From assembly GCF_002205645.1 (NCBI RefSeq), contig NZ_NIOF01000006.1, forward strand, positions 186,001 to 250,000: DNA of 64,000 nt, read 5' to 3'. Within the stretch, counting starts at the first letter, position 1; every line of letters starts with the position of its first letter. The DNA comes from Roseateles aquatilis (GTDB taxonomy: Bacteria; Pseudomonadota; Gammaproteobacteria; Burkholderiales; Burkholderiaceae_C). The notes under the pieces are model-generated. The model did no database searches and was not told the DNA's origin. It saw only the letters and a list, made by a program, of their open reading frames with translations. This document shows positions 6,589 to 60,328 of the stretch, in pieces. A program made the translations under genes and the position numbers.

Positions 6589-7512
6589 ATGTCCCAGCCG
6601 ATGCCCGGCGCCGCCGATGCGGCCACCTCCGCCCAACCCCGAGCCGGCGCCCCGGCCGGTGGTCGATCCGATGCAAGGACTGCCGCGCCGAGCCGCCGCT
6701 GGTCCTCCTGGCTGCGCGAGCCGCTGCTGCACTTCCTGCTGCTCGGCGGCGTGCTGTTCGCCCTCGACCACTTGCTGATGAGCCGCGTGGATGATCCGGC
6801 GCTGATCGTCGTCGGCGCCGAGGTCGACCAGGAGGCGCGCCAGGTCTTCGCCGGATCGCGCGGCCGTCAGCCCGATGCCAAGGAACTGGCGGCGCTGCGC
6901 CAAGTCTGGCTGGACAACGAGGTGCTGTATCGCGAGGGCCTCGCGTTGCAGCTCGACAAGGGGGACTCCGCGATCCGCGAGCGCGTGATCTTCAAGTCCC
7001 TGAGCGTCATCGACGCCGGCGTCAAGCTGCCGCCGGCCGACGACCAGCACCTGCGGGCGTGGTTCGAGTCCCATCGCGACAAGTACGACGATCCGGCCCG
7101 CTACGACTTCGAGGAAGCGGTGTTGCCCGGCGACGCCGACGAGGCCGCGCTGCGCGCCTTCGTCGCGACGCTGAACGGCGGCACGTCCGGCGACGCCCGC
7201 GCGGGGCTGCGCGTCTTCAAGGGCCGCCCGCACGTGAACCTGGTGCAGAGCTATGGCGTGGACTTCGCCAAGGCGCTGGAATCGTCACCGGTCGGCGAGT
7301 GGCGCGTGCATCGCACCCAGGAGGGCGGCCAGGCCGCGTGGCGCGCGATGCGCCTGGTGGCCGCGACGCCGGCCAAGCCGGGTGACTTCGCCGTGCTGCG
7401 CGGCATCGTGCTGCAGGACTGGACCGACGCCACGCTGTCCGAGCAACGCAGCGCCGCGGTGAAGGCGCTCAGCGCCAAGTACACGATCCGCCGCGAGGGA
7501 GCGTCCCAATGA
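6589..7512 (+). CDS. PpiC/parvulin-type peptidyl-prolyl isomerase, membrane anchored
   Basis: A 307-residue protein with a low-complexity N-terminus, then one membrane segment (LLHFLLLGGVLFALDHLLM), then a periplasmic part with SurA/PpiD-like helices (residues about 85-160, with LDNEVLYREGLALQLDKGD and IRERVIFKSL) and a C-terminal parvulin-like domain. Such proteins catalyse prolyl isomerisation or act as periplasmic chaperones. The ATG at 6589 was chosen because the upstream in-frame ATG at 6457 falls in the terminator of the previous gene. Its stop overlaps the next ATG (ATGA), so it is translationally coupled to the HupE-like gene. The pairing suggests a helper role for folding an exported partner. 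Confidence 0.8.
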   Translation: MSQPMPGAADAATSAQPRAGAPAGGRSDARTAAPSRRWSSWLREPLLHFLLLGGVLFALDHLLMSRVDDPALIVVGAEVDQEARQVFAGSRGRQPDAKELAALRQVWLDNEVLYREGLALQLDKGDSAIRERVIFKSLSVIDAGVKLPPADDQHLRAWFESHRDKYDDPARYDFEEAVLPGDADEAALRAFVATLNGGTSGDARAGLRVFKGRPHVNLVQSYGVDFAKALESSPVGEWRVHRTQEGGQAAWRAMRLVAATPAKPGDFAVLRGIVLQDWTDATLSEQRSAAVKALSAKYTIRREGASQ

Positions 7513-37397: not shown

Positions 37398-37434
37398 GAT
37401 GCTTCCTTGTAGGTTGCTGACTTGATGGGGGAGC

Positions 37435-37719
37435 TCAGGCGCCGCCGCAGGAGCCGCAGCACTGGCCGTTAGCGTGACCGCCGAGCTTGGTGATGAGGAC
37501 GCGCCAGGTGGTCGGACCGGATTCGACATAGTCCCAGGAGAAGCGGCCGGACAGCTGTGCGTCGAACTGAGTGCGCAGCGGACGCGGGTCGTGGTCGTTG
37601 ACCAGCTCCATGGACTCGCCGGGGCCCAGGCTCTTGAAGGTGTTGAAGATCAGGGCGTGCCGCTCGCGGGGCTCGACCTGCCGCACGTCGATCTTGGTTC
37701 CGTAAGTCGTGAGGGTCAT
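37435..37719 (-). CDS. DUF2249 protein, NO-reductase associated
   Basis: 94 residues: DVRQVEPRERHALIFNTFKSLGPGESMELVNDHDPRPLRTQFD is the DUF2249 core, ending with a Cys-rich QCCGSCGGA tail that could bind metal. DUF2249 genes often precede nitric-oxide or respiratory genes and may help assemble metal centres; the role is unproven. AGGAGG precedes ATG 37719. It is first in the operon with norB, with an NsrR-type box 20 bases and an FNR box 70 bases upstream of the start. Confidence 0.88.
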   Translation of the reverse strand: MTLTTYGTKIDVRQVEPRERHALIFNTFKSLGPGESMELVNDHDPRPLRTQFDAQLSGRFSWDYVESGPTTWRVLITKLGGHANGQCCGSCGGA

Positions 37720-37739
37720 ACATGGCCTCCTGTTCTTTA

Positions 37740-37760
37740 AGGTGCATTGAGAATGCATCT
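37740..37760. promoter_or_regulatory. NsrR-type palindrome before DUF2249-norB
   Basis: AGGTGCAT-TGAGA-ATGCATCT, one mismatch from a perfect palindrome and nearly identical to the site before nirK. It lies 20 bases before the start codon, suitable for repression. Confidence 0.8.
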
Positions 37761-37788
37761 ATTGTGAAAACGGCGGGCGGCTGACCGT

Positions 37789-37802
37789 TTGATCCGGATC
37801 AA
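37789..37802. promoter_or_regulatory. Perfect FNR/Dnr-type box before DUF2249-norB
   Basis: TTGATCCGGATCAA, an exact TTGAT-N4-ATCAA palindrome 70 bases before the DUF2249 start and 28 bases upstream of the NsrR-type box. Placement suits activation at around -41.5 with repression downstream. Confidence 0.85.
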
Positions 37803-37949
37803 GTGCGGCGTTGAAAGTGGCTGGTAGCGGCACTTGGCGTCGCGAGGCGCAGCCCCATGCGAGCAGCGCGCGATGCCGGCGGAGCTCAAAGAGCTGCGCC
37901 GCGCCGATCGAGGCGGCGCGGCAGCTGGGAAGGCGCGTTGAGCCGAGGC

Positions 37950-38567
37950 TCAGCGCTTGGACGAGGCGAGCGTGGCTTTGACCAGCTTCACGAACGCTGG
38001 ATCCGCGTCACCCAGCTGCGATGTCTTGCCCACAATACGGCCGTCGGTGTCCAGCAGGATGAGGGCTGTGGTGTGGTTGTAGTCGCCGTTGGGCAGGGCC
38101 TTGTACTGCACACCCAGGACAGAGGCCAGCTTGCGGACATTCGGTGCCTCTGCCCTGGCAAGCGTCCAGTGCGTGCTGTCGAGCTGCCGTTGTTTCGCGG
38201 TCTTTTGCAACACTGCCACGGTGTCGTGCTGCGGGTCGAACGTCACCATCAGCACGTTCACGCGGGAGCGTTCATCGTCACCCAGCTTTTGTTGTGTGTC
38301 GCGTATCGCTTCCACCAGCATCGGGCAGACGAATTGGCACGAGGTGTAGAACATGCTGACGATGGTGGGCGTCCCCCTGCCATCGCCCAGCGAGAAGGCG
38401 CGCCCGTTCTGGTCGGTGAGCGGTGTCGCCAACTGATAGACCGAGTCCGTAGGAAGCGTGGACGTTGCGCCTGTTGTCGTGGGCGCGGCAGCCAGCGCCT
38501 GCGCCCCGCTAATGACGAGCGTTGCCGCGGCAATCCCGCCGGCCGCAAGGAGGTGTCGACGATTCAT
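37950..38567 (-). CDS. SCO1/SenC family copper chaperone
   Basis: 205 residues with a Tat-like signal (MNRRHLLAAGGIAAATLV). The copper-binding set is intact: Cys77 and Cys81 in CQFVCP, and His165 in DYNHTTALILLDTDG. SCO proteins deliver copper or act as thiol reductases for CuA-type or other copper enzymes. GGAG lies before ATG 38567, which overlaps the nirV stop by ATGA. With nirK two genes upstream, a role in supplying copper to NirK is likely, by inference. Confidence 0.92.
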   Translation of the reverse strand: MNRRHLLAAGGIAAATLVISGAQALAAAPTTTGATSTLPTDSVYQLATPLTDQNGRAFSLGDGRGTPTIVSMFYTSCQFVCPMLVEAIRDTQQKLGDDERSRVNVLMVTFDPQHDTVAVLQKTAKQRQLDSTHWTLARAEAPNVRKLASVLGVQYKALPNGDYNHTTALILLDTDGRIVGKTSQLGDADPAFVKLVKATLASSKR

Positions 38568-39349
38568 GGTGAAGTCTCCGGAAGAGGTCTGACGCAACGG
38601 AAGCCAAGGCTCGCGGTGCTGTCGGAAGCTTTGAGGGAAGAGAGCAGGGCGACGCGCATCAGGATGGCGTAGTTGTCGCGTTGCTGCAGGTTGATGGCAC
38701 CGGCGCCGCAGAACTTCAGCTTGTCTGGATCGTCGGAGGATCGGCTGTCACCGTTGACGAGCAGGGCGTTGAAGTCGTCCGTCCACTCCCACACCAGGCC
38801 ATGGAGATCCCTCACGCCGTAAGCATTGGGAGCGCCGCCGACGGCCGGCAAGGCCGCCGTTGCGGGCCGTGAGTACCACGACAGGATGCGGGCTCTCCAT
38901 GCCGGATCGTCTCGGGCGTCGGGTCGGGTGTCGTCTGCCGCCGCCGCGAACTCCCATTCGTTCCATGTCGGCAGGCGCGCGCTTTCAGACTCGCAGAAGG
39001 CCTGGGCCGCGAACCAACTGACATGGGTGACCGGCTGCTGCGATTGAGACGAAGGCAGTGCGGGCGGTGCCGGCCAGTCTGCGAGGTAGCTGGCGTCGGC
39101 GAACACGCGCGAGGCTCTGCCGCGCTGCCATTCGGGGTGGTCCGCAAGGAAGCGGGCGAACTCGACGCGGGTGACAGGCGTGGTTCGCATGCTGAAGCGA
39201 TCGACCTTGACCAAGCCGCCCGTGGCGTCGCCCGCGAGGACGCTGCGCATCGTTCCACCCGGCAGGTCCGCGTAGTCGGCAGCCGCGCTGTACAGCGGCA
39301 GCAACGCCAAAGCCAGCATTGAACTGAACATGCAGGCGTTGTTCGTCAC
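38564..39349 (-). CDS. nirV: NirV-like protein (formylglycine-generating enzyme fold)
   Basis: 261 residues with a signal peptide (MFSSMLALALLPLYSAAA). The SUMF1/FGE-sulfatase fold is seen: GDATGGLVKVDRFSMRTTPVTRVEFARFL, VTHVSWFAAQAFCE...RLPTWNEWEFAAA, and DLHGLVWEWTDDF, with C-terminal GFRCVRP. NirV is known beside nirK in many denitrifiers and may modify or help mature the nitrite reductase; its reaction is not settled. It lies 21 bases after nirK and overlaps the SCO1-like gene. Confidence 0.88.
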   Translation of the reverse strand: MTNNACMFSSMLALALLPLYSAAADYADLPGGTMRSVLAGDATGGLVKVDRFSMRTTPVTRVEFARFLADHPEWQRGRASRVFADASYLADWPAPPALPSSQSQQPVTHVSWFAAQAFCESESARLPTWNEWEFAAAADDTRPDARDDPAWRARILSWYSRPATAALPAVGGAPNAYGVRDLHGLVWEWTDDFNALLVNGDSRSSDDPDKLKFCGAGAINLQQRDNYAILMRVALLSSLKASDSTASLGFRCVRPLPETSP

Positions 39350-39370
39350 CGCGTGCCCCCGATGCGTTGC

Positions 39371-40876
39371 TTAGTGCTCGGACTTCGGAGCGGCCGGCGC
39401 CTTCTGCGCACGGACCTTTCGCACGTCGTCGGTCGTGACGCGCCCGCCAGCGTTGTCCCAGGCGTTGAGGACATAGGTGAGGATGTTGGCCACCTCGTCG
39501 TCGTTGAGCTGGTTCATCGGCGGCATGACCGAGTTGTATTCCTGGCCGTTGACCTTGACCTTGCCTGAGAGGCCGTGCAGCACGACGCTGATCGCACGCT
39601 TGGTGTCGGCAGCGAGATAGTCCGACTTGGCCAGCGGCGGGAACACGCCGGGGAGGCCGGCGCCGTTGGCCTGGTGGCAGACCGAGCAGGTGCCGGCAAA
39701 CAGCGCCTGGCCGGCTCGTGCCTGTTCATCGACCGTCAGTGTTCCTTGCGCTGCAGCCTGAGTGGCAGCGGTCACTGCATTCAGGTTGGGCTGAGAGCGG
39801 TCACCCAGGTAGACCGAGTCGAGCTCCTTGCCCGAGTAGATGGTCTTGTCCTCGTTTCCGTCGACCTTCAGGATGGCCAGCGCTCCCTTGTTGAAGGCGC
39901 GGAAGATCGAATGGTCGACCAGCACATAGCTGCCGGGCACCCGGGTCTTGAAGCGCACGATGGCTGCGCCACCGGCCGGGATCAGCGTGGTCTGGACGTT
40001 GGTCTGCACATTGCTGCCGCCCTCGTAGCGCACCTGATCGAAGATGGCGCCGATGACGTGGAAGCTGGACACCAGGTTCGGGCCACCGTTGCCGACGAAC
40101 ATCCGCACGGTCTCGCCCACCTTGGCTGGCATGGCCTTGTCGCCCGTCAACGCACCTTCGGCGCCGTTGAAGAGCACATAGGTCGGCTGCTCGGCGATGG
40201 CCTTCTCCATGTCGAAGGGCTGCAGGCCCTTCTCGCGGTACTTGCCGGTCGTGTAGAAGTCGCCCTGCATCACGTAGTACTCGTGGTCGACCTTGGGCAT
40301 GCCCTCCGGCGGCTCCACGAGGATGAGGCCGTACATGCCATTGGCCACGTGCATGCCCACTGGTGCGGTGGCGCAGTGATAGACATAGATGCCTTCGTTC
40401 AGCGCCTTGAAGGTGAACTGCGATTCATGACCCGGCGCCGTGAAACTGGAGGCAGCGCCGCCGCCCGGGCCGGTGACGCCGTGCAGGTCGATGTTGTGAG
40501 GCATCTTGCTGCTCGGGTGGTTCTTCAGATGGAACTCGACCGTGTCGCCCTGGCGCACGCGGATGAAGCTGCCGGGCACGGTGCCGCCGAAGGTCCAGAA
40601 GGTGTAGTTCACGCCTTCGGAGATGGGCATTTCCTTCTCGACGACCTCGAGCTCGACGATGACCTTGGCCGGATACTTTCGGGTGATGGGCGGCGGGACG
40701 TGCGGCGGGCTAGTCAGGACCGCCTTGATGGGTGCTCCCCGCGGCGGCCCGAAGTCGCCGGGGGCCTTGGCCTTGGCTGCGCCGGCATCGCCCGGTGGCG
40801 TGGCGGCAAGCGCTGCGCCGGCCAGAAAGAGGGCGGCCACGAGAGCCGACCAGGACCATTTGATGCCGAATGCCAT
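39371..40876 (-). CDS. nirK: Copper nitrite reductase with C-terminal cytochrome c domain
   Basis: 501 residues, periplasmic (signal peptide ending ALAA), reducing nitrite to NO. Type 1 Cu ligands: His127, Cys168, His176, Met181; type 2 Cu ligands: His132, His167 and His322, with catalytic Asp130 and His273. The loop [17 protein letters not shown] is the short class II form. A third domain has haem c at Cys397-x2-Cys400-His401 with Met451/454 in VMPPM as likely ligand, as in Ralstonia pickettii NirK, so electrons may reach copper within one chain. AAGGAGG precedes ATG 40876. The promoter has an NsrR-type palindrome and an imperfect FNR box. Confidence 0.96.
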
Positions 40877-40901
40877 AAACCCTCCTTGGGCAGTGAACAG
40901 A

Positions 40902-40922
40902 AGATGCATTTCGTATGCATCT
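40902..40922. promoter_or_regulatory. NsrR-type palindrome before nirK
   Basis: AGATGCAT-TTCGT-ATGCATCT, a perfect 21-bp palindrome 25 bases before the nirK start. The same layout precedes the norB operon. Confidence 0.85.
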
Positions 40923-49561: not shown

Positions 49562-50662
49562 CTAGAGCGGTTCGGCGGCCTCGACCACAGGGCCTCCCAA
49601 CGGCACGCGGACGAAGAAGATCGTGGCACCGTCGTCGCACTGGAGGCCGACGTCCCAGCCGGCCGACGTTGCCAGCAGCTTCACGACGGCCAGTCCCAGT
49701 CCGCTGCCTTTCGGGCGGTTCGGCCGCGCCGCGCCGCGCACGAACGGTTCCCACATGGCGTGCTGCTCGCCTGCGGGAATGCCGGGCCCGCGATCCATCA
49801 CGCTGATCTCGACGGCATCAGCAAGGCTCATCTTGCCGAAGGCGTGCTTGAGAACCCGTGCGTGAACCACGATGCGACCGGGGCCGGAATACTTCACCGC
49901 ATTCGACAGATAGTTGTTCAAGACTTGGTGCAGGCGGATCTCGTCACCATGAACCTGCAGCTCCCCGATGTCCGTGTTGTCGAGCACGATGGTTTGCGAG
50001 TTTTGCTTGGCCTGCTCGGCGTGTTCCGCGACTACCCGATCCAGAAGCGCGTTGAGGCGAAATGACTCACGGCGAAGTTCCACCTGTCCGTGCGTCAGCC
50101 GGGTGTAGTGGGCGATGTTGTCCAGGCGCCCCTTGATCTGGACGATGCACTGCTCGAGGCCTCCCACCAGTTGAGCGGTGACGGCATCCTGAGGCTTCAT
50201 CGCCAGCAGTTCGACATTGGCCAGCATCGTCTGCAGCGGTGTGCGCAGCTCGTGCGAGACCATGCCCAGCAAGGCCGTCCGGGCCTGGGCGCTACGCTGT
50301 GCCTCGGCCCTAGCCTCGGCTTGCAGACGAGCCGCCTCCAACCGTGCAGCCTCCGCCATGTACTGCAGACGAAGGCCGATGACCAGACCGATGGCCAGAA
50401 CGATGCCCGATGCGAAGAGGGCCGTCATCGCGGTGCTGCGGCCATCGGGTTCGTTGAGCGCAATCCACAGCCCCGTTCCCGCCAGGACTGCTGCCAGACC
50501 TACGGCGCAGAGGATGGCCGGCCTGCCGACCCACCAGGCGCGCCGGTGCTGCTCCGAAACGGAGATGCTGCTGGGCTCGGGCGAAGGCTTCAGGGGATGG
50601 ATGTGGTTGGCCATAGGCGAGGCACGCGCAGGCAGGTCAGACGCGAAGAATGGCATGTGCAT
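49562..50662 (-). CDS. Sensor histidine kinase
   Basis: 366 residues from ATG 50662, which overlaps the preceding gene's stop (TGAAATG) and follows GAGGA. Two membrane helices (about 45-90) precede a linker coiled coil and the kinase core: His in LLGMVSHELRTPLQTMLANVELL, N-box NNYLSNAVKYSG, DRGPGIP and GSGLGLAVVKLL. There is little periplasmic sequence between the helices, so sensing is likely within the membrane or cytoplasm. It is coupled to the stand-alone receiver protein encoded just upstream, and diverges from a NarL-type regulator operon. Confidence 0.9.
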   Translation of the reverse strand: MHMPFFASDLPARASPMANHIHPLKPSPEPSSISVSEQHRRAWWVGRPAILCAVGLAAVLAGTGLWIALNEPDGRSTAMTALFASGIVLAIGLVIGLRLQYMAEAARLEAARLQAEARAEAQRSAQARTALLGMVSHELRTPLQTMLANVELLAMKPQDAVTAQLVGGLEQCIVQIKGRLDNIAHYTRLTHGQVELRRESFRLNALLDRVVAEHAEQAKQNSQTIVLDNTDIGELQVHGDEIRLHQVLNNYLSNAVKYSGPGRIVVHARVLKHAFGKMSLADAVEISVMDRGPGIPAGEQHAMWEPFVRGAARPNRPKGSGLGLAVVKLLATSAGWDVGLQCDDGATIFFVRVPLGGPVVEAAEPL

Positions 50663-50663
50663 T

Positions 50664-51203
50664 TCAGTCCTCGTTCTCGCCCAGCGCCATTCGCAAGTCA
50701 GCTGCGAGCCTGAGACCTGAGTATGGCTTGGCACGGTACTGGACGTTATGGCGGCTGATGATCCGGGCCAATGCATCGTCGGTGGGTATGCCGCCGATGG
50801 CCAGGTTGCCGGACAAGAGGAAGATAGGCGCGCCGGCCGAGGTGGGGTGGTGCCGAAGGAACTCTATGAGGGCGGCAGCCGTCGTGTTACCGAGATACCA
50901 ATCGAGGACGTAGGCTGAGAACGGCGAGGAGCGGGCGGCCGACTCCAGTTGGTCGGCATCGGTGTAGGACACAACCGAAAAGCCGCTCTGCTTCAGGATC
51001 GCAGTCATCGACGCCACAGCCGCCGGATCGTCGTCCAGAGCCGCAATCCGTGGTTGCAGCAGCGCGTGGGCGCTGGATGGCGCGTCCTGGACGCCGGAAA
51101 CCGACTCACGGATGCCATTGGGGCGCTCTTGAGCCATCGCGATCTGTACGGATCGCGAACTGGCCGTCAAAGACGGCCTGTCGTAGCGACTGGCCATCAC
51201 CAT
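50664..51203 (-). CDS. Stand-alone response regulator receiver protein
   Basis: 179 residues from ATG 51203 with a strong GGAGGAGG site. A low-complexity lead of about 65 residues precedes a receiver domain: RIAALDDDPAAVASMTAIL, acceptor Asp in AYVLDWYLGN, then FLLSGN and YRAKPYSG. No output domain is present, so it would act by phosphotransfer or protein contacts. It is coupled to the histidine kinase by TGAAATG and diverges from the NarL-type regulator at 51463. Confidence 0.87.
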   Translation of the reverse strand: MVMASRYDRPSLTASSRSVQIAMAQERPNGIRESVSGVQDAPSSAHALLQPRIAALDDDPAAVASMTAILKQSGFSVVSYTDADQLESAARSSPFSAYVLDWYLGNTTAAALIEFLRHHPTSAGAPIFLLSGNLAIGGIPTDDALARIISRHNVQYRAKPYSGLRLAADLRMALGENED

Positions 51204-51462
51204 GAGTCCTCCTCCTAAGCGGCGGGAAAGATCTCTGCGCAACAGGCGCACGCCTCGGCGCGTGCCATCGCTGGCTGCCGTCGCCAGGCACGCTGACCCG
51301 GCTGGACTGGACTACGATGGTAGTGAGATAGGTTACACGCTGCCACCTCGCAACGTAACATTGCGGCACCTGAATGTGTCTCAGACAGTTACAGGGTTGG
51401 GCGCTATAACGCCCTATGTTGTTGTACACCTGACAGCAGGCAATCACCGAACGTCGCGTCGC
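51204..51462. promoter_or_regulatory. Divergent promoter region of the signalling cluster
   Basis: 259 bases between divergent regulator genes. It holds GTTAC/GTAAC dyads around 51332-51360, a small hairpin (GGGCG at 51399-51403 with CGCCC at 51410-51414) and locally lower GC. Likely start sites for both operons are here; no exact known box was identified. Confidence 0.45.
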
Positions 51463-52110
51463 ATGCAAGCCGGCCGCCCCATCCGGATACTCATTGCCGA
51501 TGACCACCCGCTGATCATCGAGGGACTGGCCTTGTCGCTCAGCAAGCGCGGCATCGAGCTAGCCGGGCATGCTGCTGCGACGGCAGACGTCATCGACAGG
51601 TTCCGCCAGTGCAGGCCTGATGTCGTCGTGATGGACGTCGGGTTCGGTTCCGGGCCAACGGGGCTTGATGCTGCTCGCGAAGTCATCGCCCTTGATCCCG
51701 AGGCCCGGATCGTCTTCTACACGCAGTACGACCAGGACGAGATCGTGCGTGAGGCCTACCGCCTCGGAGGCCGCGGCTTTGTACCTAAGGTACAGCCCGC
51801 CGATGTGCTGGCCGACGTGATCGAGCAGGTGCAGCTCGGCAAGATTCACTTCCTGCCGGACATCGCCGAGCGCTTGGCGCTGATGGGGGTGCGGGGCGAC
51901 GACTCGCCTCGCGCCAAGCTGGACTCGCGCGAGCTTGACGTCTTCACGCGCTTAGCGCGGGGACAGACGACGGAGGAGATTGCCTGTGCGCTGAGCTTGT
52001 CCCGCAAGACCATCTCACTGGTCGTCCAGGCGGTGAAGGACAAGCTGGGCGTGCAGCGCTCAGCGGAGATCACTCGGCTGGCCATTCGCCACCATCTGAT
52101 CGAGACCTAG
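51463..52110 (+). CDS. NarL/LuxR-type response regulator
   Basis: 215 residues from ATG 51463; the open frame upstream is in the divergent promoter region. Receiver: IRILIADDHPLIIEGLALSL, acceptor Asp in VVVMDVGFGSG, FYTQYDQDE, and Lys in RGFVPKVQPADVL. Output: ELDVFTRLARGQTTEEIACALSLSRKTISLVVQAVKDKLGV, a LuxR-type helix-turn-helix. It begins an operon with CPBP, TonB receptor, binding protein and HisKA_3 kinase genes; that kinase (56108) is its likely partner because NarL-type regulators pair with HisKA_3 kinases. Confidence 0.92.
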   Translation: MQAGRPIRILIADDHPLIIEGLALSLSKRGIELAGHAAATADVIDRFRQCRPDVVVMDVGFGSGPTGLDAAREVIALDPEARIVFYTQYDQDEIVREAYRLGGRGFVPKVQPADVLADVIEQVQLGKIHFLPDIAERLALMGVRGDDSPRAKLDSRELDVFTRLARGQTTEEIACALSLSRKTISLVVQAVKDKLGVQRSAEITRLAIRHHLIET

Positions 52111-52138
52111 AACCTGTTGCGCCGAGGAGGGGTGCACG

Positions 52139-53026
52139 ATGCCTGTTTCGTTCGTCCTGCTTGTCGCTGCGATCGCCGCGGTCTGGCTGCCTTCGCGAAG
52201 TCAGCGCCGTTGGCCCATCCCGTTTTGGATTCCGGTGTATGCGGCGTCGCTCGTCGCGGCCGTTGCCCAGGGGTATGTGATGCCCGTGGCTTGTGTCGCC
52301 TTGCTGGTGCTGATCGCATCGACGGAGGTGATCCGACGTGGGGCTAGGCCCTGTGTCTACTGGCCCGCCTTCGCGCTGGTCCTGCTGCTGACGCTGGCAC
52401 TTGCGCTTCACAAGGTGCCGGGCTTCCGCAACCCTATCGCGATCAACGCGGTTCAGTTCTCGGGGGACGCGATCGCATTCACGCAGTACTTGAACTTCGA
52501 CAAAGGCTCTGCTGGGCTCGTGCTGCTGGCCCTGTTGGCGCCACGGCTGCGACAAGGGGACCCGATCGGGTCCACCCTGGCGCGGGCAGCGGCGCTGTCG
52601 ATGGGCATCGCGATCATCGTCCTCGGCGTCGCCCTCGTCGCCGGGATGGTACGGGTGGATCCAAAGTGGCCTCCGCAGGCGGTGCTGTTCCTTGTCGTGA
52701 ACCTGTTCTTCACCTGCGTGGCCGAGGAGACTTTCTTCAGAGTGATGATCCAAGACGCGCTGGTTGGCTCTCGTGCTGACTCAGATGCCAAAGCGTCCGG
52801 CCCGCGTGATGGCCGAGCGCTGCTGTCGATCGTGGGCACAGCAATGCTGTTCGCCGTAGCGCACGCCGGCGGCGGGGCTCGCATGGTTGTGGTCGCCGGC
52901 GTCGCTGGCCTGGGCTACGCGGCCGCATACGCCTGGCGCCGCCGCATCGAAGTGCCCATCGTGATGCACTTCGGCGTCAATGCGGTCCACTTCCTCCTCT
53001 TCAGCTATCCCGCGCTGCGGAGCTAG
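52139..53026 (+). CDS. CPBP-family intramembrane metalloprotease
   Basis: 295 residues with about 8 membrane helices. The active-site motifs are seen: CVAEETFFRVMIQDAL (Glu196, Glu197, Arg201), MLFAVAHAGGGARM with a His, and VMHFGVNAVHFLLF with His and Asn. This is the ABI/CPBP (type II CAAX protease-like) group, which cleaves or processes membrane proteins. Here it may process a component of the TonB/binding-protein signalling set. It lies 28 bases after the regulator gene and 2 bases before the receptor gene. Confidence 0.9.
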   Translation: MPVSFVLLVAAIAAVWLPSRSQRRWPIPFWIPVYAASLVAAVAQGYVMPVACVALLVLIASTEVIRRGARPCVYWPAFALVLLLTLALALHKVPGFRNPIAINAVQFSGDAIAFTQYLNFDKGSAGLVLLALLAPRLRQGDPIGSTLARAAALSMGIAIIVLGVALVAGMVRVDPKWPPQAVLFLVVNLFFTCVAEETFFRVMIQDALVGSRADSDAKASGPRDGRALLSIVGTAMLFAVAHAGGGARMVVVAGVAGLGYAAAYAWRRRIEVPIVMHFGVNAVHFLLFSYPALRS

Positions 53027-53028
53027 CC

Positions 53029-55158
53029 GTGCTGCTGCGCCACGCCGCTCCCCTCATCGGCCTGGCTCTGGCGTCGGCCACCGGGGCCGTAGCGCAGCCG
53101 TCTGACCTTCCAGCCGATGCAGATCCGTATCCCGTGGTCCTCACGCCGACGCGACTGAGGCAGTCGCTGCAGGATGTGCCTGCCGCGGTGACCATCATCA
53201 CGGCGGACATGCTGAAGAGGTTTGGTATCCGCACCATTCCGGAGGCGCTTCGCCTCGTGCCGGGCATGGAGATAACGCGTGCCAGCGGACCCGACTACCG
53301 CATCAACTACCACGGCGGTAGCGTGCTGGTGCCGCGGCGGATGAATGTGCTCATCGACGGCGTCTCTGCCTATCAGCCGCTCTTCGCGCGAGTGGACTGG
53401 AGCAGCCTGCCCATCGCGATCGACGATGTCGAGCGAATCGAGATCACGCGCGGGTCGAACTCGGCAGCCTACGGCCCGAACTCGATGCTCGCGATCGTCA
53501 ACATCATCAGCCGCCACCCACGCGACGTCGGCCGGGCCTTCGCCGCGATCGAGAAGGGCTCCAACGGGGTGGCGGCAGCGACCGTCAGGCTGGGCGCAGC
53601 CATCGGAGACGCGGACCTACGACTGACAATTAGCCGGGAGGTCGACGGCGGCTATGACAGCCAGCAGCGCGCCGGCGCTGACCATGACAGCCAGCGCCTG
53701 ACGCGCGCCAACCTTCGCGTGGCGCTGCCGCTCGGTCCCGCGTCGACGGCCGACATCAACATCGGGCATGTGGAAGGCGTCCGCGAAGTGCCAGGGGTCG
53801 ACAGCGGCGGCGTGACCTACCCGGACGCGTTGCCGCAGGACACCTATGCGTCTCTCACGCTCACCCACAACGTGGCCGCCACGCACCAGCTGCAGGTGCG
53901 GGCCTATTCGTGGGTGGATCGCATCCAGCAGAGCTGGAGCACCTGCTACCCGACCGCCTTCTTTCTGCCGGAGTTGTTCAACCTGTACCGGGCGAATCCG
54001 CGCTATGCGAACGAAGTCCTCGCCGGTCGCGCGCCGACGGGCGGGAGCGTGCAGGATGATGCGCTCGCGGCGACAGCGATCGCCGCGTTGCGTGCGCTGG
54101 GGACCGCCGCGCGGACGCCGACATGTGGGACGGCCGACCAGAGCCTCGTGCAGCGCCGTTGGGACGTCGAGATCCAGGACACACAGGTCCTGTCGGAACA
54201 GTTCAGGTTCGTCGTCGGTGCAGGGGTTCGCCAGCACAGCGGATCAAGTGCGACCTACCTGGGTACTGCGGCTCGCAACACGATCTGGCGAGCCTTCGGC
54301 AATCTGGAGTACCGCCCAATTCCGGACCTGGCATTGAATCTCGGCGGTTATGGCGAGCGCGACGAACTGAGCGGTTCGACGTTTTCACCGAGGCTCGCCG
54401 CCAACTACCGGCTCACGGACCAGCAAACGGTGCGCTTTGCGTGGACCCGCGGCAACCGAACGCCCGATGTCCAAGAGCAGCGCGCCGACTGGAGCTACAC
54501 GCTGTACGACGCCAATCCCGCGCTGCGCGGCTCATCGACCATCCGCCTCTACCAAAGCGCTCAGTCTCCAGGCGGCCTGACTGCAGAGCGTATTCGTTCC
54601 GTCGAGTTCGGCTATCTGCTCAACGTGCCATCGTATGGACTGCTGCTGGACGCCAAGGCCTTCGACGACCGGCTGACCAACCTGATCTCGGAAAAGCTGC
54701 AGCTGTCGAGCTTTGCGCCCACGAACAGTGGCGCGGTCCGGCTGACCGGCGTGGAGGTGCAGGCCAGCGCCGCGCTCGCCTCCAACTGGTCGGTCTTTGC
54801 CAACTACGCCTATCTGCAGAACCACGATGCCACCAACGCCCTCGAGACGACACAGTATTCGAGGCACAGCGGGTCGGTGGGCGTGTGGACATCGTTTGGC
54901 GCAGGATGGTCGATCTCCGCCGCGTACTTCGGTGCGTCCGGAAACGGTCTTGGACAGACGGCCTACGGTCGCACCGACATCACGCTGGGCAAGTCGCTCC
55001 GAACCGTCGGGCAACAGCATGTCGAGGCATCGCTGACGGCGCGCAGGCTGGACAACCCCGAGCAAACCTACTTTCGCGACTTTGGGGCGAATGGGACCTT
55101 GAAGGCGACCTATTCGAGTCGATTGCAGCTGCTCGGGCAAATCAGGGTGAACTTCTAG
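53029..55158 (+). CDS. TonB-dependent outer membrane receptor
   Basis: 709 residues from GTG 53029 with a signal peptide (APLIGLALASATGAVAQ). The plug is clear: LRQSLQDVPAAVTIITADMLKRFGIRTIPEALRLVPGM, then NYHGGSVLVPRRMNVLIDGVSAYQPLF and VERIEITRGSNSAAYGPNSMLAIVNI. A barrel with the final strand ending QIRVNF (terminal Phe) follows. The plug type resembles siderophore or vitamin receptors; the ligand is unknown. It is the third gene of a signalling operon, with a binding protein and histidine kinase after it, so uptake or sensing of one ligand may be linked. Confidence 0.93.
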   Translation: MLLRHAAPLIGLALASATGAVAQPSDLPADADPYPVVLTPTRLRQSLQDVPAAVTIITADMLKRFGIRTIPEALRLVPGMEITRASGPDYRINYHGGSVLVPRRMNVLIDGVSAYQPLFARVDWSSLPIAIDDVERIEITRGSNSAAYGPNSMLAIVNIISRHPRDVGRAFAAIEKGSNGVAAATVRLGAAIGDADLRLTISREVDGGYDSQQRAGADHDSQRLTRANLRVALPLGPASTADINIGHVEGVREVPGVDSGGVTYPDALPQDTYASLTLTHNVAATHQLQVRAYSWVDRIQQSWSTCYPTAFFLPELFNLYRANPRYANEVLAGRAPTGGSVQDDALAATAIAALRALGTAARTPTCGTADQSLVQRRWDVEIQDTQVLSEQFRFVVGAGVRQHSGSSATYLGTAARNTIWRAFGNLEYRPIPDLALNLGGYGERDELSGSTFSPRLAANYRLTDQQTVRFAWTRGNRTPDVQEQRADWSYTLYDANPALRGSSTIRLYQSAQSPGGLTAERIRSVEFGYLLNVPSYGLLLDAKAFDDRLTNLISEKLQLSSFAPTNSGAVRLTGVEVQASAALASNWSVFANYAYLQNHDATNALETTQYSRHSGSVGVWTSFGAGWSISAAYFGASGNGLGQTAYGRTDITLGKSLRTVGQQHVEASLTARRLDNPEQTYFRDFGANGTLKATYSSRLQLLGQIRVNF

Positions 55159-55206
55159 CGAGAGCGGGCGCAAAGACTTGCATCGTTTGGACGGACGTCA
55201 CCAAGG

Positions 55207-56142
55207 GTGAAACGAACGGACATACCAGGTGAGTTCCTCACACCGGCCAACATCCGGCGCAGATGCCTGGGCACGATCGCCCTGGGCATGTGCCTCGCCG
55301 CGCCTGCGCTGCGCGCCGCACAGCTGGAACTGCGCGTTCTCATCGGCGACCAACCCACGCCAGCGGCTCGCGAAACGCTGGCCGGCGTGACGGCCCGGTT
55401 TCCCGCTGCAGTCCACGATTCGGATGTGCAACGGCTGACGAGCCGCGCCGGCGGGGCGGTGTACGCCGCGCTCGGCGTCGAGGCTCTGCAGGCGCTGCTT
55501 GATGTCGACATGGACAGCCCGGTCCTGTCGCTGCTGGCCTCCAGCGAGGCCTATCGCGCCTGCCTCCTATCCCGCCCCGAACGCCGACGTGGCTCAGCCA
55601 CGGCGCTGTTCGCGGAGGCCTCCCCTGGGCAGCAGCTGGCCCTGGTGCGTCTGATCTATCGTAGGCGCGTGACAGCGGGCGTGTTGCTCACCGAGAACAC
55701 CGCGCACCTGGCCGACGCCATCAAGGCGGCCGCACGGAGTGCCGAACTCGATCTGGAGTTCTGTCGGCTGGAGTCGGGCGAGAACCCCATCCGGGCGCTC
55801 GGGCGCCTCGCGTCCGCAACCGTGCTGCTGGCCGTGCCGGACCGCGCGGTCATTTCCGCCGAGAACGTGCAAGCATTTCTCGAGGCCACCTATCGCCGGG
55901 GCATGGCCGTCGTTGGCTTTTCGGCGGCACTGGTCCGAGCCGGTGCCCTGGCATCCGTGTACTCGACCGTTGACGAGGTCGTGGCCCAGGCGACCCTTCT
56001 CGTCGAGCAGCTCCTCAGCGGACAGCTGCCAGTCATGCAGTTCCCCGCGTACTGGCGAGTCGCGGTGAACGACCGGGTGGCGCGGTCCCTGAACATTCCG
56101 ATCGACCATGAAGCCAGAAGCTACGCCAGTCCGACGCGATAG
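55207..56142 (+). CDS. Periplasmic ABC-type substrate-binding-like protein
   Basis: 311 residues with a signal sequence (LGTIALGMCLAAPALRAA). It has the two-lobed pattern of the ABC-type 'uncharacterised substrate-binding' family: LLTENTAHLADAIKAAARSAELDLEFCRLES, then ATVLLAVPDRAVISAENVQAFLEATYRRGMAVVGFSAALVRAGAL, and a C-terminus WRVAVNDRVARSLNIPI typical of that family. No ABC permease or ATPase is nearby. It overlaps the kinase gene by 35 bases, which suggests that it feeds the kinase as a sensor. Confidence 0.85.
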   Translation: MKRTDIPGEFLTPANIRRRCLGTIALGMCLAAPALRAAQLELRVLIGDQPTPAARETLAGVTARFPAAVHDSDVQRLTSRAGGAVYAALGVEALQALLDVDMDSPVLSLLASSEAYRACLLSRPERRRGSATALFAEASPGQQLALVRLIYRRRVTAGVLLTENTAHLADAIKAAARSAELDLEFCRLESGENPIRALGRLASATVLLAVPDRAVISAENVQAFLEATYRRGMAVVGFSAALVRAGALASVYSTVDEVVAQATLLVEQLLSGQLPVMQFPAYWRVAVNDRVARSLNIPIDHEARSYASPTR

Positions 56143-57634
56143 GGTGCTGTCGCCCCGGACGCTGCAACCGAGCATCACCACGCGCTTGGTGCTGATCGCA
56201 TGCGTGCCGGCGCTGCTCATGTTCGTTGTGATCACGGTGGCGATCTGGCTCAGCGGCCGGGACGAAGCCGTCAAATCCGTGGAGGAGCGGGGGGCAGTGA
56301 TTGCATCGTCGCTGGCGCAGACGGGACAGTACGGCCTGATGTCGGGCAACAGCGCGTCGCTTGAGCGCAGCATCCGTCGCATGGTCGAGTCCGACGACTC
56401 GATAGCGTCCATCGAACTGACCGACGCGAATGGTCATGCGGTGGCGCGCGCCGTGGCCACCGACCGGCCCGGCAACCTGACCGTCGAGCGGGACGTGCGC
56501 GCGGACGTGTTCGGCATTGACCTGCTGGACAACAGCTTTTCTGCGCGTGAGCAGCCGATCGAGGCTGCGACGCGGGACGGGCGCGTGATCGGCAAGGTCA
56601 CTGTGCGATTGAGCAGCCAGCCCATCGAGCGGGCGCAGTTGAAGAGAGTCTTGGTCGGTGGACTCGCCGTGCTGCTGGTCGCCTGCCTCAGCGTGGCGAC
56701 GGGACTCGCCATGGCCCAGCGGCTGCGGGAACCGCTGCACCTGGCGATGGCGGCGTTGCGAGAGATTCGCCAGGGCCGCTACGACGTGAACCTGCGCGTC
56801 GAAGCGACTGGCGACCTGGGCGAGCTGCAGGCGACCATCAACGAAGTGGCGCGCGAGCAGTCGACGCGCGATGAGACCACGAGGGCGCTGGTGGAACGTC
56901 GCACAGCCGACCTGCAGGAGGCCATAGCCAAGGCCCAGGCCGCCGACGCGGAGCGCGGCAAGCTGCTTGCGCGCAGCAACCGCCAGCTCGAAGACGAGCG
57001 AAAGCGCATCGCGGTGGAAATCCATGACCATCTCAACGCCACGCTGATCGGTCTGCGGTCAAAGGTCCAGCACATCGCCGATGTCTCGGCCACGATGCAG
57101 GGCGCACAAGCGAAGGAGGTTCATGCAACGGCCACGGAGATCACGAAGACGATCGCGGCGCTCTACCAAAGCGCACGCGATCTCATCAAGCAGCTGCGGC
57201 CCGAGGTGATCGACGTGCTGGGGCTCGCCGGCGCGCTGCAAGAGATGACGCGTGAGTACAACCAGTTGGTCCCGCTCGTTCGCTTCGTTCTCCACGTGTC
57301 GCCGGACTTTCCCCCGTTGCGGGGGCAAGTCGCGATCGTCGCCTACCGATTGGTTCAGGAGGCGCTGTCGAACGTCGTCAAGCATTCGAGCGCCAGTCGA
57401 GCCGAAGTCTCGCTGACGGCCGAGGGTGGCGGCTCCGAGATGCTGATCGCCGTACGGGACGACGGCGTGGGCTTTGACCCGGCCAGGACAGGCAGTGGCA
57501 GCCTGGGCCTGGCGGGAATGCGCGAGCGCGTCGCTGGAGCTGGCGGGCGCATGCGCATCCACTCGCGCCGGGGGCAGGGCACGCGGGTGACGTTCCGGCT
57601 GCCGGTGGTTGAGGGGGAGGACCCGACCGCCTGA
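56108..57634 (+). CDS. HisKA_3-type sensor histidine kinase (NarX/UhpB class)
   Basis: 508 residues. N-terminal membrane helix (RLVLIACVPALLMFVVITVAIWL), a periplasmic region of about 130 residues, second helix (VLVGGLAVLLVACLSVATGLAM), HAMP-like linker, coiled coil, then HisKA_3 with acceptor His near 306 in RKRIAVEIHDHLNATLIGLRSKV, and HATPase (YRLVQEALSNVVKHSSAS, DDGVGFDPAR, SLGLAGMRERVAGAGG). NarX/UhpB-type kinases pair with NarL-type regulators, fitting the one at 51463. The periplasmic part could touch the binding protein encoded just before. Confidence 0.93.
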   Translation: MKPEATPVRRDRVLSPRTLQPSITTRLVLIACVPALLMFVVITVAIWLSGRDEAVKSVEERGAVIASSLAQTGQYGLMSGNSASLERSIRRMVESDDSIASIELTDANGHAVARAVATDRPGNLTVERDVRADVFGIDLLDNSFSAREQPIEAATRDGRVIGKVTVRLSSQPIERAQLKRVLVGGLAVLLVACLSVATGLAMAQRLREPLHLAMAALREIRQGRYDVNLRVEATGDLGELQATINEVAREQSTRDETTRALVERRTADLQEAIAKAQAADAERGKLLARSNRQLEDERKRIAVEIHDHLNATLIGLRSKVQHIADVSATMQGAQAKEVHATATEITKTIAALYQSARDLIKQLRPEVIDVLGLAGALQEMTREYNQLVPLVRFVLHVSPDFPPLRGQVAIVAYRLVQEALSNVVKHSSASRAEVSLTAEGGGSEMLIAVRDDGVGFDPARTGSGSLGLAGMRERVAGAGGRMRIHSRRGQGTRVTFRLPVVEGEDPTA

Positions 57635-57671
57635 TCCCAGCGTCCTGGCGATGCGCCGGCGCTCGCCGTCG

Positions 57672-58010
57672 TCAGAACCCGCGACGAACGCGGTTCAGTG
57701 CGACGGCCACGTCACCGGACGACCTGGCAAAGGCCGAGCCGGAGTCCAGCATGCGCGTGGCATCGTCCATCTGCCCGGCGTTGATGCGACGTGCGACTTC
57801 ACCGGCCGCTTCGTGGAACTTCCGATGCTCTTCCGGCAGCGCCATGAATTTGGGTTGCGTGCCATTGCGCCGGCCGCCAGCGCCGTGCAGCCACTGTCCG
57901 AGCTGACAGCGGTTATCGCACGAGATCGCATCGGCATCCAGATGCTCGTGACGTTCGATGGCACCGCGCAGACTCACCTTCCACTGGCGGCGCCTCGACC
58001 CGGGCGACAT
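57672..58010 (-). CDS. CZB (chemoreceptor zinc-binding) domain protein
   Basis: 112 residues from ATG 58010 made mostly of one CZB domain: VSLRGAIERHEHLDAD, then CQLGQWLHG and LPEEHRKFHEAAGEVARR, giving a His, Cys, His, His zinc-binding set. CZB domains usually end chemoreceptors or diguanylate cyclases and sense zinc or hypochlorite through a zinc-bound thiolate. Here it stands alone, with no chemoreceptor or output part. It is convergent with the histidine kinase gene. Confidence 0.82.
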   Translation of the reverse strand: MSPGSRRRQWKVSLRGAIERHEHLDADAISCDNRCQLGQWLHGAGGRRNGTQPKFMALPEEHRKFHEAAGEVARRINAGQMDDATRMLDSGSAFARSSGDVAVALNRVRRGF

Positions 58011-58148
58011 TTGTGCGCTCACCGCCCATTCTTCCTGGCCTAACAGCCTGCAGCGGAGGCCAACCGAGGTCTCCGACTCCCGGATTTTCGCTGGAGCTTC
58101 GAGCCCGCCGCACGAAAACTACCTCTGTCCCAGTGACATGGTGCAGCG

Positions 58149-59057
58149 ATGCAGCTCAAGACGATCCAGCAGGCCACCGAGATCCTGACCGACGTGTTGT
58201 TGCGGGGGATGAGCTATCGCGCTGCGGGTGCTCGCCAAGGCGTGGGCAAGTCCACTGCCGAGCGACAGGCCAAGGTCTTGGTGCGCCTCGTCGCGAGAGA
58301 GTGCGGTATCAAGGGTGTGCAGGACACCGACATCAGCAGCTTGGCACTACTGCGCAACGCGCGTGAGGAGGTGCTGAAGGCCGTGAAGGCTTTCGATCCT
58401 TCTTGCGTCTCGACGAGGGTGCGCCTGATCAAGGAGGAGGACCTGCCGGCGGCGATCCGAAGCGTTCGGTCGCAGAGCGAGAACGCCAACCGTGACGCGG
58501 CCCTGTTGCTGCTGCTGATCGCCACCGGTGCGAAGCCGCTGGAGATCGCGCGCCTGAAGGTTTGCGACTACATCGACAGCGAAGGCCGGCCGCGCGACCC
58601 TGACGGGCAGCAGGCAGAAGCATCGAAGGGGGGAAAGCGCCAGATCCCGTTTGCGAGCCAGCGGCTGCAAGACGCGATGGACAGCTACCTCGTTGAGCGC
58701 GTGCGACGTGGGCTGGGAGTCTCGGGCCACTCCTGTTTTCGCGGGCTCGCGCCGGACAGCAGCCTCTTCCTGACCCAGGACGGTCGCCCCTTCGCGGTGA
58801 AGGCTCGTGGACCGAACGATCCGCGACCAATCTGCCCCGTCGTCGTGGCTATCTGCCGACGCATTCTCGCCCGTGCCGGCCTGCAGGGAACCACGACGCA
58901 TGCCTTGCGGCGCCAGCTGGCGCAACGCCTCATCACGCGGGGCGCGTCCAAGCAGAGGGTCGGCGAACTGCTGGGCATCTCGAACACCCGCTCGGTCGGA
59001 CGGCTGCTGCGCGGACGCGTGCCCACGACCGAGGAACTGCTCGGCGACACCGCCTAG
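58149..59057 (+). CDS. Tyrosine-recombinase-like protein lacking catalytic residues
   Basis: 302 residues with the phage-integrase fold. The core region reads RDAALLLLLIATGAKPLEIARLKVCDYID, where the usual Arg of TGxRxxE is Lys, and the C-terminus reads HALRRQLAQRLITRGASKQRVGELLGIS, keeping HxxR but replacing the second His by Ser; no Tyr follows in RSVGRLLRG. The N-terminal part has a resolvase-like helix-turn-helix (GMSYRAAGARQGVGKSTAERQAKVL). With three of the catalytic residues missing it is unlikely to recombine DNA and may bind DNA as a regulator. It is the first of a three-gene set with a DUF1173 protein and GntR-type regulator. Confidence 0.75.
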   Translation: MQLKTIQQATEILTDVLLRGMSYRAAGARQGVGKSTAERQAKVLVRLVARECGIKGVQDTDISSLALLRNAREEVLKAVKAFDPSCVSTRVRLIKEEDLPAAIRSVRSQSENANRDAALLLLLIATGAKPLEIARLKVCDYIDSEGRPRDPDGQQAEASKGGKRQIPFASQRLQDAMDSYLVERVRRGLGVSGHSCFRGLAPDSSLFLTQDGRPFAVKARGPNDPRPICPVVVAICRRILARAGLQGTTTHALRRQLAQRLITRGASKQRVGELLGISNTRSVGRLLRGRVPTTEELLGDTA

Positions 59058-59077: not shown

Positions 59078-60328
59078 ATGGATATCGCGCGCTACTTCAT
59101 CCGGGGGCGGACCTTCATGGCCAGCAATCCTGGCCTGCAGGACGCATTGGCGCGGGTCTATGACTCGTCCGAGCGGCCGCGCTGCATGTGCGTTCCGGGA
59201 GGCGTGGAGATGTACGTTGCCCGCCACGCCGAGTATGTGATCAAGCGCATGCCCGACACCGGCCGCCTGCACCATGCGACGTGCCCCTCATTCGAGCCCG
59301 AGCCCGGAACGTCAGGACTGGGTGAGCTGCTGGGGGAGGCCATCGTCGAGCACGCGCCCGAACAGGTCGAGATCCGCACCGCCTTTCCCCTTGCGCGCGT
59401 GTCGGGCCGTGCGATCCCGCACCAGGAAGCCGCCGAAGACCCTGCATCGGTCACGGCGCCGCGCAAGCGCATGAGTCTCAGGGCGGTGCTGCACTTCCTC
59501 TACGACCGAGCGGGATTCAACCGCTGGTATCCAGCGATGGCCGGACGGCGCAGCCAGGCAGTGATACGTCGGTTCCTGATGTCTGCCGCCCAGGGTGTCA
59601 CCCTCAAGGGAGGCACGCTGGAAGAGCGACTGTTCGTGCCCGAGCAGTTCCGTGCCGCGGAAGCCGAGGAGATCGGCGAGCGTCGCCGGCGACGCCTGGC
59701 GCTGCTGCTGTCACCAGAGGCCGACGTGCAGTTCAAGATGGCCATCCTGATCGGCCAGCTCAACGGTGTCGAGTCGACCGCCTACGGACGGCGGCTGACT
59801 GTCAAGCATATGCCCGATGCGCCGCTGTACGTCGACAACAAGGCGTGGGAACGCGTGGAGCGTGCGTACGGGGCGATCCTGCAAGCCGTAGACGCCGACG
59901 TCGAGCACAAGCCGCGAGTGCTGATGGCGGCATTGATCTACGCCAAGCGCGAGCATATCTACCAAGTGGACTCGCTGTCGCTGATGCTGGTGACGGATCA
60001 ATGGATTCCGCTGGACGGCCTGCACGAGTTGCCGTTGATCGAGGCTTTGCAGCGCGAGGGCCGATCGTTCCTGAAGCCGCTCAAGTTCGATGCGAAGAGC
60101 GCGGCACCGTTTCCGAACGTGCTGCTGCTGGACGTTGGGCCTGCGCCGCTACCGCTTCATGTCGACAGCCCATTCCTGGCAGCCAAGGAACGGGCGCTCA
60201 AGGAGAAGGCTGTGAGCGGACTGGGGCAGGGGGCCTGGGTGTGGCGCACCGACGCAGCATTGCCTGACTTGCCTCCAATCTCGGCTCAACCCGTGCAGCG
60301 CGTGCGCCCGCAGTTCGAGCAAGCATGA
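59078..60328 (+). CDS. DUF1173 protein
   Basis: 416 residues. AGGAG lies before ATG 59078. The DUF1173 signature is seen: RCMCVPGGVEMYVARHAEYVIKRMPDTGRLHHATCPSFEPEP near the start, with Cys, His and Cys residues that look like a zinc site, then SLRAVLHFLYDRAGFNRWYPAM, and a C-terminal part with LYVDNKAWERVERAYG. The function is unknown; such genes are found in integrative elements of Proteobacteria. Its end overlaps the GntR-type gene by ATGA. Confidence 0.82.
   Translation: MDIARYFIRGRTFMASNPGLQDALARVYDSSERPRCMCVPGGVEMYVARHAEYVIKRMPDTGRLHHATCPSFEPEPGTSGLGELLGEAIVEHAPEQVEIRTAFPLARVSGRAIPHQEAAEDPASVTAPRKRMSLRAVLHFLYDRAGFNRWYPAMAGRRSQAVIRRFLMSAAQGVTLKGGTLEERLFVPEQFRAAEAEEIGERRRRRLALLLSPEADVQFKMAILIGQLNGVESTAYGRRLTVKHMPDAPLYVDNKAWERVERAYGAILQAVDADVEHKPRVLMAALIYAKREHIYQVDSLSLMLVTDQWIPLDGLHELPLIEALQREGRSFLKPLKFDAKSAAPFPNVLLLDVGPAPLPLHVDSPFLAAKERALKEKAVSGLGQGAWVWRTDAALPDLPPISAQPVQRVRPQFEQA

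Follow-up and report, generated by a model that had tools for sequence, protein, structure and literature searches.

A conserved TonB receptor-binding protein-kinase operon of Roseateles aquatilis as a candidate three-compartment sensory relay

Introduction

In the LuxP-LuxQ and TorT-TorS systems, a protein with a type I periplasmic binding protein fold and no transporter of its own serves as the co-receptor of a kinase, and in FecA-FecR-FecI and PfeA-PfeRS a TonB-dependent receptor (TBDR) is tied to a signaling pathway. We know of no TBDR in LuxP-LuxQ or TorT-TorS. Here we analyze a stretch of 64,000 nucleotides from Roseateles aquatilis (positions 186,001 to 250,000 of contig NZ_NIOF01000006.1, assembly GCF_002205645.1), called the window below, in which five genes at positions 51463-57634 of the + strand encode, in this order, a NarL-type response regulator, a CPBP protease, a TBDR, a periplasmic binding protein (SBP) and a HisKA_3 sensor histidine kinase. 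An earlier sequence-only reading had taken them for a signaling line in which the receptor brings a ligand to the binding protein, which activates the kinase and the regulator, perhaps with adjustment by the protease. We regard a three-compartment sensory relay running from the TBDR through the SBP and the kinase to the regulator as the best explanation of this operon, and as a probable one.

A comparable arrangement has been described for YfiBNR, which consists of an outer-membrane part, a soluble periplasmic regulator (YfiR, which acts by partner exchange) and a HAMP transducer whose outputs include GGDEF, GGDEF-EAL and histidine kinases; the passages of that paper that were searched for “tonb” make no mention of a TBDR (PMC3375315). 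The loci considered here likewise combine a HAMP transducer carrying a PAS-like/sCache_4-like periplasmic domain with exchangeable outputs (GGDEF, GGDEF-EAL, HisKA and HisKA_3). They differ in that the periplasmic protein has the PF04392 SBP fold whereas YfiR belongs to PF13689, in that the outer-membrane partner is a TBDR rather than the lipoprotein YfiB (the operon holds the TBDR and no further gene for such a lipoprotein), and in that the sCache_4-like sensor resembles DgcN/YfiN only weakly (NCBIfam E 3.7e-7). The genome of the window has no PF13689 match at E 1e-10, and such matches occur in 24 of 120 genomes of the order. Of 30 YfiR-family loci examined from the order (L246-L275), 20 had a TBDR, 16 matched the sensor profile derived here, and 11 combined the two features. 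To judge from these loci, the place between TBDR and this type of transducer can be taken by an SBP or by a YfiR-type protein alike.

The other described systems each share one part of the arrangement. As in LuxP-LuxQ and TorT-TorS, a type I SBP-fold protein that lacks a transporter of its own stands beside a kinase, on which by analogy it may dock, although both the SBP family and the sensor domain are different. The window SBP shares fold and family with the aromatic amino acid ABC (ATP-binding cassette) binding proteins TrpX, CD0873 and VC_1101 but has no adjoining ABC-ATPase genes (permeases were not searched for), and two pocket positions given in PMC6816091 are changed. GacS/BarA have the PF09984 (sCache_4) periplasmic domain as well, whereas the operon has a HisKA_3 core, a paired NarL regulator and an adjoining SBP gene. 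In FecA-FecR-FecI and PfeA-PfeRS, too, a TBDR is linked with signaling genes, but here no signaling domain was found on the TBDR, the operon contains no sigma/anti-sigma pair and an SBP lies in between. A module of TBDR, PF04392 protein and transducer was not described in the titles and abstracts searched, which cover the subscription literature thinly and do not show its absence in print.

The five-gene operon and its conservation

All five genes are open and lie on the + strand in the order that had been read from the bare sequence, and the operon is real. The first gene (51463-52110), whose start agrees with that of aligned relatives, encodes a NarL/FixJ-type response regulator with a receiver domain (REC, PF00072, E 3.5e-16) and a GerE/LuxR helix-turn-helix domain (PF00196, E 1.7e-10). 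It is followed by the genes for a CPBP-family intramembrane glutamic protease (52139-53026; PF02517, E 1.6e-16) and for the TBDR (53029-55158), on which Pfam places a plug (E 1.7e-18), beginning at residue 47, and a barrel (E 4.9e-22) but no N-terminal signaling domain. The SBP (55207-56142) has a PF04392/TrpX-like type I fold and belongs to what we call the signaling branch of this family, and the kinase (56108-57634) consists of a transmembrane (TM) segment, an sCache_4-like periplasmic domain, a second TM segment, HAMP, HisKA_3 and HATPase_c. The overlaps ascribed to the operon are confined to a single junction, that of the SBP and kinase genes, which share 35 nt; the remaining junctions are gaps of 28, 2 and 48 nt. 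The SBP and kinase genes also overlap by 35 nt in L010, the corresponding locus of a Burkholderiales metagenome-assembled genome, provided that the L010 kinase begins at the matching ATG.

The complete set of five genes, in the same order, was found in seven loci, namely, the window, L010, the loci L223, L224 and L225 of three further genomes, and two plasmid loci, L243 of Massilia sp. WG5 and L244 of Massilia sp. H6 (L090 is the H6 plasmid again), so that the expectation that the genes would be conserved together was borne out. Compared with the window, the L010 proteins are 63-83% identical for the regulator, protease, TBDR and kinase and 69% identical for the SBP, and the proteins of the WG5 plasmid copy are 35-45% identical. 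The order is also retained between the window and the copies of the genome family f8, at 34-50% protein identity for the regulator, protease and kinase. The ratio of nonsynonymous to synonymous substitution (dN/dS) between the window and L010 was 0.13 for the regulator, 0.27 for the protease, 0.15 for the TBDR, 0.24 for the SBP and 0.23 for the kinase, at a dS near 1. Because the order recurs in six other loci and dN/dS lies between 0.13 and 0.27, we conclude that the operon is not a product of chance.

Residues that would be needed for function are retained in all seven full operons: the receiver Asp of the regulator, the phospho-acceptor His of the kinase in an E-x-H-D context, and the EExxFR, FxxAH and HxxxN motifs of the CPBP protein. 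A HisKA_3 and HATPase_c kinase is thereby paired with a REC and GerE regulator with its phospho-residues intact. We take the motifs of CPBP glutamic proteases to be EExxxR, FxxxH and HxxxN; the protein carries these. The stretch VLTPTRL, presumably a TonB-box-like motif, is present in the TBDR of 7/7 full operons.

None of 15 genomes of the same genus has an SBP match, and the operon is accessory within its own genus. A reduced form consisting of regulator, SBP and kinase genes also exists, and in all 24 such loci examined both the TBDR and the CPBP genes are absent from beside the SBP gene; the regulator shares the operon with the kinase in these 24 as it does in the seven full loci. In a tree of the SBP plus the kinase, for which GGDEF- and HisKA-type relatives served as the outgroup (and in which long branches were flagged), the full five-gene loci form a grade and need two label changes, the 24 reduced loci form one clade (100/100), and the window and L010 branch off before the others (95/85). 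Most simply, then, the reduced form would have lost the CPBP and TBDR genes in one step. We considered a tie between CPBP and TBDR, both of which are retained in full loci and absent from reduced ones, and set it aside: since the tree needs a single loss event, their joint presence is not independent evidence of a link. Among 29 control loci centered on CPBP genes, a TBDR was present in 1, and that one (L148) is the same operon on genome G332.

The binding protein and its transducer in other genomes

With a profile built from seven SBPs, relatives (E 1e-15 to 1e-20) were detected in 89 of 399 genomes from the order, 55 of 274 from the class and 20 of 200 from the phylum. The window's own genome is part of every figure, and the figure for the order, for which no more than about five candidates were scored in any one genome, takes in 8 ABC-type places. 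Relatives were present in 35 of the 195 genomes of family f8. In 92 of the 103 loci with longer flanks, the SBP gene is immediately followed, on its own strand, by a gene whose product has the same N-terminal sensor-HAMP profile. The other 11 comprise eight weak matches within two genes of an open reading frame (ORF) with an ABC-ATPase motif, two loci at a contig end and one (L089) in which the next gene encodes a DEAD-box-like helicase. A TBDR gene lay directly upstream in 54 of these 92 SBP-transducer loci and anywhere in the stretch in 63. Among the best-scoring 48 loci from other orders and classes, taken with 1.5-kb flanks, 45 had the sensor profile and 38 had a TBDR. The background for these figures is given by the 29 CPBP-centered control loci, which are of similar size and have a TBDR in 1.

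The absence of an ABC transporter had been part of the earlier proposal, and for the ATPase it held up: by regular expressions, the pair of ABC-ATPase motifs is absent from every window ORF of at least 100 amino acids (aa), in a search that covered the ATPase only, and the annotation of the Massilia plasmid stretches lists no ABC-ATPase genes. Nor is an ABC transporter always found beside the homologues; an ABC-ATPase motif occurred anywhere in the stretch in 6 of the 92 loci, two to six genes off.

Sorted by output motif, 158 distinct SBP-transducer pairs, the window included, comprised 51 HisKA, 38 GGDEF, 30 HisKA_3, 25 GGDEF+EAL and 14 unclassified transducers, EAL being undercounted because many short loci cut the transducer off. 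The output domains vary while the SBP and the sensor region stay. PF09984 was matched at E 0.1 or better in 49 of 52 transducers, although the window kinase scored only E 0.071, below the curated cut-off, and HAMP was matched in 49 of 52 (E 0.1). The sensor profile also matches 5o7j (E 1.5e-10), which we take to be the GacS domain treated in PMC5595915. The AlphaFold model of the kinase had a predicted local distance difference test (pLDDT) score of 84, and the fold search covered mainly residues 283-502, outside the periplasmic domain. The window operon is the histidine-kinase branch of a wider TBDR-adaptor-transducer module.

Two loci show other arrangements of such genes. In L100 (4516-9636), a single SBP gene lies between two kinase genes whose products both have the same sensor profile. 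In L017 (6654-15999, + strand), five tandem PF04392-type SBP genes directly precede the gene for a 1,472-aa multi-GAF sensor kinase that is open at the end of the stretch; no ABC-ATPase motif is present among the listed ORFs, and the locus may be a second kind of SBP-fed sensor. A dedicated Ton energizer was also considered, since small ORFs sized like ExbB, ExbD and TonB lie upstream of many TBDR genes, but these read as housekeeping genes; sample loci inspected by eye had DnaQ-like, RNase H-like and methyltransferase-like products.

An altered pocket in the signaling branch

At E 0.01, Pfam gives no match to the window SBP, and NCBIfam TrpX matches it at E 2.5e-6, far below that model's cut-off; PF04392 at E 0.01 matches 93 of 114 aligned SBP relatives. 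The AlphaFold model of the window SBP (mean pLDDT 93) is folded into two lobes like CD0873, VC_1101 and SP1069, and its structural matches are aromatic amino acid SBPs (6hnj, Z 22.2 over 261 residues; 3lkv, Z 21.6; 3lft, Z 20.7). LuxP chains are found among its Foldseek matches at ranks 19 and 32.

PMC6816091 describes aromatic amino acids as the ligands of the structurally solved PF04392 SBPs, which are part of ABC systems, and assigns the choice of ligand in SBPs of the CD0873/VC_1101/SP1069 type to two residues. We matched residues 239 and 255 of the window SBP, through a HMMER alignment, to Ala-246/Glu-263 and Tyr-262/Tyr-279/Gln-284 of that study and found Ser239 and Val255, both of which differ from the pocket residues given there. 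Position 239 is Ser in 111 of the 114 signaling SBPs but Asp or Glu in all eight ABC-type SBPs of the set, and position 255, which is Tyr or Phe in 8/8 ABC-type SBPs, is Pro in 74, Ile in 15, Val in 8 and Tyr in 3 of the signaling SBPs, with others in the rest. On this comparison, the signaling branch has altered its pocket as a group, and the change at these two positions makes a plain aromatic amino acid an improbable ligand for it. Gly90, Asp212, Ser239, Gly246 and Asn288 are retained in 111 to 114 of the 114 signaling SBPs, which argues for a working pocket; Gly246, Asp212 and Asn288 lie within stretches common to signaling and ABC-type SBPs.

The N terminus of the L223 SBP (about 6817-6960) contains SRRQFL, presumably a Tat-like signal motif, of which no exact match was seen by eye in the other six full-operon SBPs.

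The proposed relay and its alternatives

In the relay that we propose, the TBDR would import a ligand across the outer membrane, and the SBP, released from ABC transport duty, would bind it in the periplasm. The SBP would also dock on the sCache_4-like periplasmic domain of the kinase and so alter HisKA_3 kinase activity. The NarL-type regulator would then adjust transcription, probably including that of its own operon through a conserved block upstream, and the CPBP protease may be an accessory of the TBDR-bearing form. Such a relay would resemble YfiR-YfiN or LuxP-LuxQ with a TBDR added at the outer membrane, and the best available description by analogy is that the operon works like YfiR-YfiN but with a recruited ABC-type binding protein in the adaptor slot.

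Divergence of the SBP was compared with that of the parts of its transducer. In the GGDEF set (n=61), the SBP distances correlated at 0.87 with the periplasmic sensor, 0.84 with TM2-HAMP and 0.67 with the output, and in the HisKA set (n=50) the correlations were 0.77 for the periplasmic sensor and 0.45 for the output; that the SBP tracks the sensor more closely than the output fits SBP-sensor contact. This closer tracking does not extend to the HisKA_3 set, to which the window operon belongs. A line running through receptor, SBP, kinase and regulator is the best available reading, strengthened by the conserved five-gene order and by the finding that an ABC transporter is not a constant neighbor.

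Several observations weigh against the relay. In the HisKA_3 set (n=30), which includes the window operon type, output (0.95) and sensor (0.93) did not differ, and in the HisKA set TM2-HAMP (0.79) did as well as the periplasmic part. Distance correlation alone is no proof of contact, since linked genes share a history. Residue covariation was not confined to the periplasm: with gap columns cleaned, the SBP-periplasm pairs exceeded every shuffled pairing (top ten, 0.623; highest null value, 0.525; 40 swaps), but the cytoplasmic TM2-HAMP control also beat its null on one of two measures (top ten, 0.668 versus 0.615; 25 swaps). A TBDR is not obligatory, for one HisKA_3 clade has lost both TBDR and CPBP, and 29 of the 92 SBP-transducer loci have no TBDR in the stretch, some of these being cut by contig ends. 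Finally, no sigma-70 consensus site was found in 51200-58200.

The operon might instead serve uptake under two-component control, with the TBDR and SBP feeding an ABC permease and ATPase encoded elsewhere while the kinase senses independently. Two-component systems beside TBDRs are known, PfeR/PfeS being an example, and the ABC context of the solved PF04392 SBPs (PMC6816091) would suit this account. It does not sit easily, however, with a transducer that adjoins the SBP in 92 of 103 loci and whose outputs include GGDEF, which has no direct control of transcription, or with the rarity of an ABC-ATPase motif in the stretch (just 6/92 loci), and at each of the two pocket positions the ABC-type SBPs recovered alongside carry other residues. 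We consider uptake unlikely. Somewhat less probable still, in our estimate, is an SBP that acts as a repressor without need of a small ligand, the TBDR or envelope stress holding or releasing it as proposed for YfiR with YfiB, and its pocket being vestigial. The ability of YfiR-type proteins to take the place of the SBP between TBDR and transducer speaks for a repressor of this kind, as does the partner exchange of YfiR (PMC3375315), but a vestigial pocket would not be expected to keep the five residues from Gly90 to Asn288 in 111 to 114 of 114 signaling SBPs, and the TBDR has no extra N-terminal domain.

The presence of two copies on mobilizable Massilia plasmids, and of recombinase and DUF1173 genes next to the window and L010 copies, raises the question of whether the five genes are a mobile-element passenger without integrated function, held together by linkage alone. 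Retention of the order at 34-50% protein identity on different backbones, dN/dS values of 0.13-0.27 and catalytic residues kept in 7/7 full operons make this very improbable.

Beyond the window, TBDR, soluble adaptor and sCache_4-HAMP transducer may constitute a general proteobacterial class of trans-envelope receptors, a generalization for which we would give about even chances. Its adaptor would be either a YfiR-type protein or an SBP recruited from transport, its output would be freely exchanged (cyclic di-GMP enzymes, hybrid kinases or HisKA_3-NarL pairs), its TBDR would be the outer-membrane entrance to a sensor instead of to a nutrient importer, and one of its branches would travel on conjugative-type plasmids. 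If so, a sizable fraction of the TBDRs and “ABC substrate-binding proteins” of proteobacteria would be sensors misannotated as importers, and simple genetics could reveal which extracellular molecules reach cyclic di-GMP enzymes and kinases through the outer membrane. A Ser239-type SBP adjoining an sCache_4-HAMP transducer would then be the signature by which to find such sensors.

Flanking genes and mobile context

The block upstream of the regulator gene (51317-51419) is conserved between the window and L010 at 89 of 100 columns of DNA. The best value in the intergenic region downstream is 50, and the coding operon averages 72, with a maximum of 89. The upstream block is a candidate promoter/operator common to the operon and the divergent genes, and sequence conservation makes it a candidate operator for autoregulation. 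The divergent genes, on the - strand, encode a receiver-only response regulator (50664-51251; Response_reg E 1.8e-6, just under the Pfam cut-off), 69% identical to its L010 homologue, and a HisKA histidine kinase (49562-50776; PF00512, PF02518), 66% identical to its L010 homologue. No homologues of this kinase and receiver lie beside the operon in L223-L225, L243 or L244.

Downstream, on the + strand, lie genes for a XerC/D-like tyrosine recombinase (58149-59057; PF00589, E 2.9e-9), which occupies the same place in L010 at 70% identity, and a DUF1173 protein (59078-60328; PF06666, E 1.2e-94), 90% identical in L010, of which related genes are found on Piscinibacter and Aquincola plasmids. These flanking mobile-element genes are context and stand outside the relay; a GntR-type regulator gene is also found downstream of the operon. 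In the two mobilizable Massilia plasmids, the operon has par genes on one side and F-type transfer genes on the other, and a third plasmid match, at 26% identity, comes from Teredinibacter. Control of conjugation was considered as a general role but found no support, as 0 of the 14 non-operon L243 proteins match the window, L010 or L223-L225 and no TrwC relaxase was found in the window's genome.

Just 3' of the kinase gene, 57672-58022 (- strand) encodes a stand-alone chemoreceptor zinc-binding (CZB) protein (PF13682, E 3.6e-12), and the matching place in L010 has no CZB ORF of at least 80 aa. Elsewhere in the window, 35121-40909 (- strand) and 75-2069 (+ strand) encode NorB, a nitrite-reductase-like cupredoxin/cytochrome c protein and a second TBDR, followed by HupE/UreJ and 2-oxoglutarate (2OG)-oxygenase genes.

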